NCBI GenBank assembly: GCA_031258155.1
Contig: JAIRNH010000066.1
Coordinates: forward strand, 1-64,000
Reading direction: 5' to 3'
Source of the DNA: Helicobacteraceae bacterium
Lineage (GTDB): Bacteria; Campylobacterota; Campylobacteria; Campylobacterales; SZUA-545
Length of the DNA stretch: 64,000 bases
Shown: piece by piece, positions 1 to 49,531 of the stretch
How positions within the stretch are numbered: the first letter of the stretch is position 1
Layout of the letters: each line of letters starts with the position of its first letter
Made by a program: the position numbers and the translations under genes
Notes under the pieces: model-generated
What the model was told of the DNA's origin: nothing
Seen by the model: only the letters and a program-made list of their open reading frames with translations
The model's database searches: none

Positions 1-585
1 GCGGGAGCGGCAAAAGAGATCGCAAACGCGACCGATCTAGAAACTTGCAAAAAGATTCAGGCTCGTCTTCTAAAAGACGAACGCTTTATTGATGAAACGG
101 CGGCTTGCGAAATCGTCGATCTATTAGCGTTTGTTCTGCGCGGCGATAATAGCCAATCGATCGCAACGCCGCCAAGCTCGCAATACGCTTCGCCATCGAC
201 TTCGCAGTCGCGATACGCGCAACCGCAAACAAACGCAAACGCGCAGAATACGGGCGTAAATAACGCAAGCGGCTGGATTAGTAACGCGGCAAAAACAATT
301 ATCACCGTAATTATCGCGATAGCCGTTGGTATCGTAGTTGGGGCTATTGCCGTATTTGTGATATGTTGTATTAGCTTTCTAATTGCAGGCGGAGAAAGAA
401 TAGACAATTTATGGTCGTCTAATTATGACTATCATTCTTACAAAATTATAGATCACGCCAAAAAGATAGCCGCAGTTTGCGGCGCTATTGGCGGCTTTAT
501 AGTTTGGCTAATAACATTTTATAAGGTCAATAAAAAGTTACTGCCAAAGGCTACAAAAGATTGGATTAAGAATTGGCGCAATTGA
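1..585 (+). CDS. Two-TM membrane protein with shared N-terminal helical domain (5' end outside window)
   Basis: The frame is open from the first base to a TGA at 583-585, so this is the last 194 residues of a longer protein. Residues 1-60 match the second half of the N-terminal domain of the TPR protein at 1548 and the zipper protein at 48812 (shared AKEIAN..DL..CKKIQ.R.L and AACEI..LLAF.LR). A polar Ser/Gln/Asn-rich linker follows, then a long hydrophobic segment (about 100-134) and a second one (about 155-177) before a Lys-rich tail. That layout suggests a cytoplasmic domain tethered to the inner membrane. Function is unknown. It lies 90 bp upstream of the FHA-like gene on the same strand and may share its transcript. 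Confidence 0.75.
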   Translation, partial: AGAAKEIANATDLETCKKIQARLLKDERFIDETAACEIVDLLAFVLRGDNSQSIATPPSSQYASPSTSQSRYAQPQTNANAQNTGVNNASGWISNAAKTIITVIIAIAVGIVVGAIAVFVICCISFLIAGGERIDNLWSSNYDYHSYKIIDHAKKIAAVCGAIGGFIVWLITFYKVNKKLLPKATKDWIKNWRN

Positions 586-675
586 CTTGCCGCTTATATT
601 TATATAGCAAGGCTTTATTAGCGCCGATCTTTAATAAACGCCGCGTGATAAATCTATATCGCTAGGGAGATAAAG

Positions 676-1548
676 ATGTATGATCGCATCACTAAAAAGA
701 CGGCGTTTTACGCTGGCGGCGGCGCTATTGGCGGCGCTTTAGGCGAAATTATAAGCGAGTTATTCGCTTTTAATGAAGCTACCGACTCATTCATTGAATG
801 CCTAGTTCATACGGCGATCTGGATGGGAGTAATCGGGTTTGGCGTATCCATATCGCTGTTAGTAGCGCTTGGGATATATCTAAGAAAAACGCCAAATTGG
901 CAATCGCTAGTAAAAGCGGCGTTAATCGGCGCGGGCGCGGGCGCGGTCGCGGGCGGATTGGCGCAATTTATCTATAGCTTCGCGTTAGCGGAGATTGGCA
1001 AATTTGGATTGCTGCCGCGCGTTATTCAGGCGCTCTGCTGGGGCTTGGCGGGCTTGGGTTTGGGTTTGGGCGTTTCGCTTTTCACGCCAAACTATTCGGC
1101 GCTAAAAGCGATTTTGGCTGGATTTGCGGGCGGCGCGATCGGCGGCGCGATATTTCTTTTGTCTGGCGCTTTTCTGCCCGAAACAATTTCTCGGATTGCG
1201 GGCATAGCGATTTTAGGCGCGACGATTGGGCTAACTATTTCGGCGGTTGAGGAGATATTGCGCGAGGCGTGGCTAACGATAATCTGGGGCAAAAACGAAA
1301 CCTCCTCCGTCTCGCTAGGGCAAAAACCCGTAACGCTAGGTAGTTCAAGCGAGGCGGACATTCGCCTGCCGCGCAAAAAATATCCGCCCGTAACGGCGGT
1401 CATATCGGTAGAAAACGGCAAAGTTATATTGGACAACAGGCTGAGCAATCAAAGAGTCGCGCTCCCAAACGGCAGCAAAATTAGCATGGGAACAATCGGC
1501 GTAATTATCAATATACGCAAAAGCGGCATAGATAGAAAGGAGCGATAA
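676..1548 (+). CDS. Multi-TM glycine-zipper membrane protein with C-terminal FHA-like domain
   Basis: The protein has 290 residues. Residues 10-190 are a run of hydrophobic segments packed with Gly/Ala zipper motifs (AGGGAIGGALG, GAGAGAVAGG, GLGLGLG, FAGGAIGGA). Residues about 212-280 resemble a forkhead-associated fold: LGSSSEADIRLP matches the FHA strand with the conserved Gly and Ser, then come VISVENGKVILDN, RLSNQRVALPNGSKIS and a terminal hydrophobic strand. The classic SxxH is not obvious, so phosphothreonine binding is uncertain. The ATG at 676 has GGGAG 8 bases upstream. The stop overlaps the next gene as TAATG, so the two are probably translationally coupled. A membrane-anchored signalling or scaffold protein is the most that can be inferred. 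Confidence 0.75.
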   Translation: MYDRITKKTAFYAGGGAIGGALGEIISELFAFNEATDSFIECLVHTAIWMGVIGFGVSISLLVALGIYLRKTPNWQSLVKAALIGAGAGAVAGGLAQFIYSFALAEIGKFGLLPRVIQALCWGLAGLGLGLGVSLFTPNYSALKAILAGFAGGAIGGAIFLLSGAFLPETISRIAGIAILGATIGLTISAVEEILREAWLTIIWGKNETSSVSLGQKPVTLGSSSEADIRLPRKKYPPVTAVISVENGKVILDNRLSNQRVALPNGSKISMGTIGVIINIRKSGIDRKER

Positions 1549-2906
1549 TGGACGCGAAGTTTATAGCGATTGTAGGGCGCTTGCTCAAGGAGCAAGGCGC
1601 GGATACGTTGATCAATGCGGCAAAATGCAAAGCGTTTTTAAACGATTACGCCAAAAGCGAATTTAAGAGAGAGCGGCATTTGCTGATGATCGCTATTGAG
1701 GCGGGGGCGGCAAAAGAGATCGCAAACGCGAGCGATCTAGACGCTTGCAAGAAAATTCAAATCCGTTTTCTAAGAGACGAACTCAGCATCGACGGCGCGG
1801 CGGCTTGCGAAATCATTGAGCTATTAGCGTTTCTCCTGCGCGACGATCAAAACCAATCTATTGCCCAAACGGCAAAACTCGCGCCGCAATCGCAATATAA
1901 TCCAACGCGATACGACGATGAATCCTCGTTGCGGCGGCAAACGAGCGATCCGCCGTATCAGACGCCGCAAAACGGCGATAACGCACGATCGGCAAAAGCT
2001 AATAGATCAATAGGCTTTTTTCTTTTTATCGCGGGCGTTATAGCCGTCGTTTGCTTTGGTATAGTCGTCTTTATAAACGATCTATCCAGTAGCTATTATC
2101 AATCGCAATCAACGCAAAAGATCGCGCCGCCAACAACGCAGAATATCGACCCGCAAATCGCAATTCTAAAAGAGACGCTTGATAAGGCAAAGAGAGCCGA
2201 GCGCCTAAACGATCGCAAAGAGGCGATACGACTATATACAAAAGCGATCGAACTCGCCCCCGATAATTTCGCCGCGTATAGCGATCGCGGGGATATTTAC
2301 TACGCGCTAAACGATTACAAAAAAGCGATCGCGGATTTCAGCCAAGCTATCAAGATTGATCCTAACGTAGCCTACGTTTATAACAACCGAGGAAACGCCT
2401 ACGCCAATCTGGGCTTTTATTCCGCGTCTATCGTCGATTACTCTCAAGCGATCAATATCTCTCCTAGCGACGCAAAAATCTACAATAATCGCGGATACGT
2501 CTATCAAACATTAAACGATTACAAAAAAGCGATCGCGAACTATAATCAAGCTTTGGGTATCGATCCAAACTATGCGGAGGCTTATAATAATCGCGGGCTT
2601 GCCAACTATAGTTTAGGCGCTTATTCAAAGGCAATCGCGGATTTTAACCAAGCTATCAACATTAACCCCTACATCGCGGACGCTTATAACAATCGAGGAA
2701 ACGCTTATAATGATTTAGGCTATAGAAATAAAGCGATCGCCGATTACAATCAGGCGATAACAATAAATCCAAATTTGCCGTATTTGTATAATAATCGCGG
2801 GGACGCTTACTATAATATGGGCGACTACAAAGCCGCCGCGAAAGACGCGCGAAAAGCGTGCGAACTAGGTAGTTGCGATCTGCTGCGGCAGATAGAGAAA
2901 AATTAA
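1548..2906 (+). CDS. TM-anchored tetratricopeptide-repeat protein with shared N-terminal domain
   Basis: The protein has 452 residues. Residues 1-107 are the unnamed helical domain shared with the genes at 1 and 48812 (LNDYAKSEFKRER, then CKKIQIRFLRDE). A polar linker leads to one TM helix at about 159-182, then about seven 34-residue TPRs from about 207 to the end, with the repeating signature AYNNRGNAY..LG.Y..AIADYNQAI.I.P. The tail (AAKDARKACELGSCDLL) resembles the tail of the small TPR protein at 47224. The start is fixed by overlap with the upstream stop and by AAAGGAG just before it. TPRs bind other proteins, so the likely role is a membrane-linked scaffold; partners are unknown. Confidence 0.85.
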   Translation: MDAKFIAIVGRLLKEQGADTLINAAKCKAFLNDYAKSEFKRERHLLMIAIEAGAAKEIANASDLDACKKIQIRFLRDELSIDGAAACEIIELLAFLLRDDQNQSIAQTAKLAPQSQYNPTRYDDESSLRRQTSDPPYQTPQNGDNARSAKANRSIGFFLFIAGVIAVVCFGIVVFINDLSSSYYQSQSTQKIAPPTTQNIDPQIAILKETLDKAKRAERLNDRKEAIRLYTKAIELAPDNFAAYSDRGDIYYALNDYKKAIADFSQAIKIDPNVAYVYNNRGNAYANLGFYSASIVDYSQAINISPSDAKIYNNRGYVYQTLNDYKKAIANYNQALGIDPNYAEAYNNRGLANYSLGAYSKAIADFNQAININPYIADAYNNRGNAYNDLGYRNKAIADYNQAITINPNLPYLYNNRGDAYYNMGDYKAAAKDARKACELGSCDLLRQIEKN

Positions 2907-47223: not shown

Positions 47224-47616
47224 ATGAAAGCGGTTATGCTTGCGGCGTTAATATGCGTCGCCTCTTGGGGCGCAAGCCTTTTTGAACTAGGCAAAGAAGC
47301 CTATGTAAACGGCAATTATGAAGAGGCGTTAGAGTATTTCGCCAAAGCGATAAAAGAGAAGCCAAAAAGCGCTGAAATTTACTACGAGCGCGGCTGCCTT
47401 CTTAGCGATCTGGGCGAATATGAAGCGGCGATCAAAGATTTTACGAAAGCGATCGAGCTTAAACCCGATTACGGCTTTGCCTACAACAATCGCGCGATCT
47501 CCTACGGAACGAGCGGCGATATTGAAAAGGCGGAAAAAGACGCGCGTAAAGCGTGCGAGTTAAAAGTCTGCGTCGCGTATCAATTTATGCGCGAAAACGG
47601 ATTTATAGAAGACTAA
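47224..47616 (+). CDS. Small secreted TPR protein
   Basis: The 130 residues start with a signal peptide (MKAVMLAALICVASWGAS, likely cut near 17) and contain three TPR-like units (FELGKEAYVNGNYEEALEYF; AEIYYERGCLLSDLGEYEAA; GFAYNNRAISYGTSGDIEKA). The end (DARKACELKVC) recalls the TPR protein at 1548 and is frequent in this phylum. Probably a periplasmic protein-binding factor. It stands alone with its own -10 element. Confidence 0.85.
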   Translation: MKAVMLAALICVASWGASLFELGKEAYVNGNYEEALEYFAKAIKEKPKSAEIYYERGCLLSDLGEYEAAIKDFTKAIELKPDYGFAYNNRAISYGTSGDIEKAEKDARKACELKVCVAYQFMRENGFIED

Positions 47617-48811: not shown

Positions 48812-49531
48812 TTACCCTCTGTTTTTATTGATCGCCTTATCCGAAATCCGCGTTCCAAGCATTAATCCAGTCAACGCTCCGAATGTTCCTGCGGTCAGCG
48901 CTCCGATCACCGCTCCTGCTATTGCCGTGTATTCCGTTCCGACTATATCTCCAATCAACGCTCCGATCGACACTCCAATTAGCGCTCCGATCGTCGCTCC
49001 GAACGACGTTCCAACCAGCCCTCCGAGTAGCGCTATAACATTCCTCCATCCAATCAGCCACCCAATCAACGCTCCGATCGCCACGATCAGACATACAATC
49101 GGCATTCCAAACGCCGGTCTAACCATCATTCCAATCAGCGCTCCGAACGTCCCTGCGATCAGCGCTCCAATCGCCGACGCCTGTTTATCTATTCGCGGCG
49201 TTTGATCGGGTTGAACAATCGATTTGCTCTGATCTTGGCGTAAAATAAGAGCGAGCAGATCGACGATCTTCGCCGCCGCGGTATCGTTTATAAATAGCTT
49301 CTCGCATAGATAACGAATTTGCGTCTGTTTGCAGACTTGTAAATTCCGCGCGGTATCGATCGCTTTCGCGCAATCCGTTTCGATCGCCATTATTAGCAGA
49401 CGGCGCTCCTGTTTGAACTCGCCTTTTGCGTAATCGTTTAACGACGCCTCGCATTGTTTTGGATCGAATAGAACCTCTCTGCCCTCTTTCGCAACCAGCT
49501 CTTGCGCAACCGATACAAACCGCGCGTCCAT
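48812..49531 (-). CDS. Glycine-zipper membrane protein with shared N-terminal helical domain
   Basis: The 239 residues start MDARFVSVAQELVAKEGREV and carry the same ~105-residue domain as the proteins at 1 and 1548 (LNDYAKGEFKQERRLL, CKQTQIRYLCEK, IVDLLALILRQDQSKSI). From about 130 a long Gly-zipper membrane domain follows: IGALIAGTFGALIGMM, IGALIGWLIGW, GATIGALIGVSIGALIG, IGALTAGTFGALTGLMLG. No enzyme motif is seen. The zipper segments suggest tight helix packing or oligomerisation in the membrane. The DNA here repeats itself because the codons do. Neighbours are rplU and lepA, with no apparent link. Confidence 0.75.
   Translation of the reverse strand: MDARFVSVAQELVAKEGREVLFDPKQCEASLNDYAKGEFKQERRLLIMAIETDCAKAIDTARNLQVCKQTQIRYLCEKLFINDTAAAKIVDLLALILRQDQSKSIVQPDQTPRIDKQASAIGALIAGTFGALIGMMVRPAFGMPIVCLIVAIGALIGWLIGWRNVIALLGGLVGTSFGATIGALIGVSIGALIGDIVGTEYTAIAGAVIGALTAGTFGALTGLMLGTRISDKAINKNRG
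48850..49180. repeat. Imperfect tandem repeat coding for glycine-zipper units
   Basis: On the + strand the motif CGCTCCGATC or CGCTCCAAT recurs many times (for example near 48899, 48961, 48985, 49070, 49160), spaced about 24-60 bases. On the coding strand it reads GAT/ATT-GGA-GCG-, the IGA of IGALIG. The array could expand or contract by slippage. Confidence 0.6.

Follow-up and report, generated by a model that had tools for sequence, protein, structure and literature searches.

Introduction

TerY-P triads are widespread, and we know of no phosphorylation target for any of them. PMC11090510, citing Anantharaman et al. 2012, defines the triad as a VWA protein, a PP2C phosphatase, and a Ser/Thr kinase whose C terminus bears a zinc ribbon. 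It reports TerY-P-like modules that act against phage on their own and others that accompany restriction systems, and the TerY-P clusters of Helicobacter pylori, most of which are broken, adjoin restriction and WXG100/FtsK genes (PMC4978471). Kaur et al. describe an actinobacterial GAP1-N2 theme with a kinase (Zn ribbon plus beta-rich domain), a PP2C protein, and a stand-alone vWA protein (PMC7159879). The same paper sets out the principle of the effector-associated domain (EAD), in which a core copy of a domain is joined by amplifying copies on unlike outputs.

The DNA analyzed here (the window) is a 64,000-nucleotide stretch from a Helicobacteraceae bacterium. A preliminary description pointed to a domain shared by three of its proteins, which we call the N-domain. 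This domain is real and conserved, has no family name, and is tied to a known switch, the TerY-P triad.

The N-domain and its copies

The N-domain is about 107 residues long and N-terminal in two complete window proteins. In the first (1548-2906, plus strand), the domain (1548-1868) is followed by a linker, a TM helix (residues 158-176), and seven TPRs. In the second (48812-49531, minus strand), the domain (49211-49531) precedes a glycine-zipper membrane protein (Gly-zipper_Omp, E = 9.8e-9), and the gene stands isolated with rplU/rpmA-like genes on one side and lepA on the other. A third protein (1-585, plus strand) has two TM helices (residues 103-121 and 156-174) and only the second half of the domain (1-171), because its gene is cut at the contig start; the remainder lies on contig C69 of the same genome (positions 3-272). 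The preliminary description had assigned the domain to all three proteins, and the unlike outputs that it listed are present. Its first motif (LNDYAKSEFKRER and LNDYAKGEFKQER) and its second (CKKIQIRFL and CKQTQIRYL) occur literally in the 1548-2906 and 48812-49531 proteins, respectively. The third is literal only in the 1548-2906 protein; the glycine-zipper protein has LLALILRQDQSKSI at this place. The contig start removes the first motif from the 1-585 protein, which carries the other two as the variants CKKIQARLL and LLAFVLRGDNSQSI.

A small protein encoded at 47224-47616 (plus strand) has an apparent signal peptide and three TPRs and lacks the N-domain. Its C-terminal TPR cap, KDARKACEL..C, is shared with the N-domain/TPR proteins.

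The earlier view of a reused, nonenzymatic helical module holds up. With the glycine-zipper protein as query, eight copies were found in the genome (E = 1.9e-33 to 1.7e-9, excluding the query itself), and one relative (G005, 98% complete) has 10. The other copies in the genome share 35-66% identity with the window copy at 1548, and eight residues are invariant over 27 copies (M1, G17, E42, A49, I58, A94, L97, and D100); R43, K68, and D91 are conserved as well. An AlphaFold2 model built from the 27-sequence alignment (mean pLDDT 90.9, pTM 0.85) is all helical, with eight segments, and the domain matches no enzyme family.

The preliminary description could not name a family, and neither could we: the N-domain has no meaningful match in Pfam or NCBIfam, none in PHROGs, and no solved structure among the PDB chains. 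The matches of the 27 members to Pfam-A (E <= 1) include no named EAD family. Foldseek found no PDB structure at E <= 0.001 and no fold match among viral models. The best PDB hit (E 1.5, TM 0.42) does not place the domain in the death-like fold superfamily with its six-helix death fold, and we rejected this assignment. N-domain queries against viral contigs, phages, and plasmids gave no match. A single-sequence scan of genome contigs gave two matches, one of them genuine (a Helicobacteraceae MAG); the other, a Rickettsiales transposition gene, was not confirmed by the profile and is spurious.

Operon context

The first 119 bases of the window, which begins contig C66, are exactly the last 119 bases of reverse-complemented C69. 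An overlap of this kind is the signature of assembly-graph neighbors broken at a repeat, and because it is exact, it puts the triad and the first window genes into one operon, a join that depends on the assembly overlap. The joined order is kinase (Zn ribbon), VWA, PP2C/TM, N'/TM, N/TPR, N/RDD, N/2TM (1-585), FHA-like (676-1548), and N/TM/TPR (1548-2906), where N marks an N-domain and N' the copy directly behind PP2C. The gene at 676-1548 and the contig preceding the window thus place the first two genes flagged by the preliminary description in one triad operon, an association that the description missed because the triad is on another contig.

Judged by their sequences, the first three genes of the operon have all three defining features of a TerY-P triad. 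The kinase (PF00069, E = 1.3e-14) contains GEGGQG, K, YQDLNDGN, and DND, and its C terminus consists of a zinc ribbon (C-x-C...C-x2-C) and a beta-rich tail. The VWA protein (PF00092, E = 1.4e-6) has the MIDAS elements DSSGS, GLT, and SDG. The PP2C phosphatase (PF13672, E = 4.8e-31) has DGHG, GDG, SDG, and GDD and carries a TM helix. The catalytic and metal-binding motifs of all three proteins are intact in G000 (the window's own genome) and G004.

The gene at 676-1548 (plus strand) encodes a glycine-rich multi-TM protein that ends in an FHA-like (YscD_cpl-like) domain; the stop codon of this gene and the start codon of the one that follows overlap (TAATG). The FHA-like assignment is tentative. 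Three of three homologues match PF16697, the best at E = 8.7e-5, which is below the Pfam cut-off; the AlphaFold2 model, built from few sequences, has low confidence (pLDDT 52); and by eye the domain is without the usual phosphothreonine-binding residues.

In the relative G004, a congener, a single contig carries kinase, N/TPR, N/glycine-rich/TPR, VWA, PP2C, N', N/TM/TPR, N/glycine zipper, and FHA-like, so that kinase, VWA, PP2C, and N' are accompanied by five further N-domain copies. An N-domain on this contig forms a single open reading frame with the FHA-like protein, an in-frame fusion; the corresponding two genes of the window are those that overlap by TAATG. The same components are spread over three short contigs in G002. 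The N/glycine-rich/TPR gene of G004 (contig C94; L041:11308-13120) is broken at a G run into two frames that overlap, which is a frameshift, a slippage site, or an assembly error.

A tree of N-domain copies clusters by genome (8 label changes against a shuffled mean of 17.6, with 0 of 200 shuffles as low). The exception is the N'/TM copies of G000 and G004, which lie directly behind PP2C in both genomes and pair together with support of 99/97. N' may therefore be a constant core copy, with the remaining copies acting as amplifying, interchangeable clients.

A second kinase and PP2C gene pair occurs on contig C5 of G000 (L064/L090, about 6.8-8.5 kb), on C5 of G001, and on C90 of G004. It is possibly another TerY-P-like locus. 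G001 has this pair and no N-domain.

Distribution and fused bodies in Campylobacterota

Of 60 genomes searched, 8 have the N-domain, namely the window's own, five congeners, and two members of a second genus in the family; it was found in none of 45 genomes from other families of the order. Among 298 sampled genomes of the phylum, three have it, all in the window's family. The bodies behind the domain in 27 sampled proteins are TPR (13) and RDD (6), and the rest are glycine zipper, two TM, RCC1, DUF805, and short TM tails. The preliminary description had spoken of membrane-bound effectors. Most of these proteins are indeed membrane proteins, but the term is too narrow for copies that precede soluble TPRs or RCC1 repeats and for the Methylomonas bodies described below, and "effector" is at most a putative label.

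In three N/RDD proteins (L047:2104-3606, L045:4793-6217, and L049:7181-8158), a fourth, strongly hydrophobic helix lies behind RDD (for example, IFVLVIIAAIALPRL). It recalls a pilin-type N-terminal helix, and in two of the proteins an unassigned region follows it.

The triad kinase and FHA-like protein are complete in G000, G002 (in fragmentary form), and G004. An intact triad kinase is absent from the five other N-bearing relatives (G003, G005, G006, G011, and G014), and a PP2C search gave no match in the first four. The N-domain is consequently not strongly correlated with presence of the core system, and since these five genomes retain it without an intact kinase, it can persist without the switch. 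In G014, several stops have degraded the triad kinase on contig C51 (L059/L063, 8.3-9.4 kb) to pseudogene fragments, and pieces of the N-domain immediately adjoin it; the TerY-P/N-domain system is in the course of loss in this genome.

Triad loci on Methylomonas and Prevotella plasmids

A kinase search of plasmids gave two near-full-length matches, to Methylomonas CP157007.1 and Prevotella NZ_CP091789.1. The plasmid of Methylomonas sp. AM2-LC, which a cyanobacterial-style query matched and which was then tested with real sequences only, carries the triad followed by five proteins with a common 101-residue domain. A profile made only from Campylobacterota copies (A2, with no Methylomonas rows) and run over whole plasmids hits CP157007.1 in exactly five places (E = 2e-5 to 2e-4), all directly behind the kinase-VWA-PP2C triad; the link of the N-domain beyond Campylobacterota depends on this one plasmid and on weak profile scores (hhalign, below). 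The same profile finds nothing, even at E <= 10, in three other TerY-P-type plasmids.

Direct comparisons agree with this match on an unrelated plasmid. The Methylomonas domain scores 18.9 bits against the N-domain HMM, which none of 4573 scored shuffles reaches (maximum 7.8), and its median Smith-Waterman Z is 6.2. The hhalign alignment is collinear (P about 2e-4) with a probability of only 41-49%, which is low because the Methylomonas copies are near-identical to one another. Identity to the Campylobacterota N-domain is about 25%. The bodies behind the domain are Sel1, Tim44-like, Clp_N, a ClpX C4 zinc finger, and one unassigned region.

Within this array (L085:14924-16418), Clp_N and the ClpX C4 zinc finger are carried on N-domain genes from which the ATPase is absent, and a third gene is Tim44-like. 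From their sequences, these chaperone-part proteins look like adaptors that could divert Clp machinery.

The Prevotella plasmid has a TerY-C protein, then kinase (43% identity, 99% coverage), VWA, and PP2C, and then two genes with a common N-terminal domain (Z 8.7, 0 of 2000 shuffles). One of these carries an FGE-sulfatase body and the other a different body. No homology of this domain to the N-domain was detected, its HMM score lying within the shuffle range; only the layout is in common.

Similar domains may also occur in Treponema, cyanobacteria, Bacillota, and Bacteroidota. A Treponema-style query found no match in viral contigs. Two samplings of the phylum of G327, of about 300 and about 400 genomes and without a positive control, likewise gave none.

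Proposed role and alternatives

Our preferred reading, which we hold with modest confidence, is that the N-domain is a coupling adaptor, or plug, of a TerY-P-type phosphorylation switch, onto which it would dock interchangeable, mostly membrane-bound clients. This reading draws on the homology of the copies, the order of the genes, the conserved triad with its catalytic residues, the fusion in G004, and the recurrence on an unrelated plasmid; its main difficulty is the group of N-bearing genomes without an intact triad kinase, which speaks against strict dependence. The operon encodes a Ser/Thr kinase, a VWA protein, a PP2C/TM phosphatase, a membrane-bound FHA-like protein, and a series of N-domain proteins. 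The domain, most likely cytoplasmic and near the membrane, would dock each body onto the kinase/phosphatase/FHA core. It might do so by homotypic contact with a core copy (the N'/TM copy behind PP2C or one joined to the FHA-like protein by coupling or fusion), or it might contact the kinase directly. One kinase/phosphatase decision could then act on many clients, so that membrane proteins would be phosphorylated and deployed together, perhaps in response to envelope stress or to phage. The charge flanking the TM helix of N' and of several N/TPR proteins is positive before it and neutral or negative after it, which weakly predicts that the N-domain is inside and the tails or TPRs are outside the cytoplasm. 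Of the sensing and docking functions proposed in the preliminary description, docking is favored.

The domain could instead be a kinase-independent module for oligomerization or localization, such as a scaffold for membrane clusters, with the triad as one use among several. Most of its outputs are membrane or scaffold-like (TPR, RDD, and glycine zipper), and N/TPR proteins, in up to 10 copies, occur in genomes without the triad kinase. This explanation is nevertheless unlikely, as Methylomonas has the same type of domain immediately after the same triad, G004 has the domain fused in frame to the FHA-like protein, and the decayed kinase beside N-domain fragments in G014 suggests that some lone copies are leftovers. 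Paralogous expansion within the lineage, by which a 5' gene segment recombined before unrelated genes without any common function, is more improbable still. It would account for the near-identical neighboring copies on C69 and for the broken and fragmentary copies of G003, G006, and G014, but not readily for a confident fold with invariant residues over 27 copies, for copies that are intact at 35-65% identity, or for homologues in another phylum with other outputs.

Defense against phage, or another conflict, may be what the locus serves: the triad would sense, with glycine-zipper and multi-TM N-domain proteins as abortive-infection effectors in the membrane. This idea is compatible with an adaptor and draws on the reported antiphage and restriction-companion roles of TerY-P-like modules (PMC11090510) and on a patchy distribution with decay and within-genome amplification. 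We think it somewhat unlikely. The kinase gives weak matches (E about 1e-12) to PD-T4-6 and mad6, two kinase models of PADLOC, but only in its general kinase fold, and the VWA, PP2C, FHA-like, and N-domain proteins have no PADLOC match. In addition, none of the bodies joined to the N-domain here is a nuclease, an NADase, or a known toxin, and many copies stand singly among housekeeping genes.

If the N-domain is a TerY-P plug, then it allows triad clients to be listed from sequence in any genome and yields a binding hypothesis that can be tested directly. More tentatively, and with some doubt on our part, it may found an unnamed multi-phylum superfamily of adaptors that couple arbitrary membrane and chaperone-like bodies to TerY-P triads, a bacterial analogue of death-domain coupling that works through reversible phosphorylation.

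Comparison with known systems

The locus resembles described TerY-P triads in that all three proteins are adjacent, the kinase has the C-x-C...C-x2-C ribbon, and the VWA MIDAS and PP2C motifs are intact. It differs in that the recovered neighbors include no restriction, Ter-family, or WXG100/FtsK genes; in their place are the membrane-bound FHA-like protein and a series of membrane proteins that carry the N-domain, and the PP2C protein has a TM helix. The actinobacterial GAP1-N2 theme has the same triad and the same kinase C-terminal architecture, whereas the present locus belongs to another phylum, has an N-domain array, and contains no identified GAP1/GTPase gene. The Methylomonas locus shares the triad and the homologous N-domains behind it, five in number, and differs in its bodies and in the low identity of its domains.

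In design, the N-domain parallels the EADs (PMC7159879, PMC8195603). Unlike these, the N-domain has no Pfam match to a named family, EADs included, is not tightly bound to the presence of its core, and accompanies a kinase triad rather than a MoxR-vWA or GTPase core. Like them, it is a small, helical, nonenzymatic N-terminal domain on unlike outputs, with copies in the core operon and elsewhere that are most similar within one genome. The EAD arrangement of one copy on a core component and others on effectors is seen in the FHA-like fusion of G004, where treating the FHA-like protein as core is our own assignment. If the plug reading is true, then the EAD logic of one adaptor with many outputs extends from NTPase-centered systems to a kinase-centered, membrane-located one.
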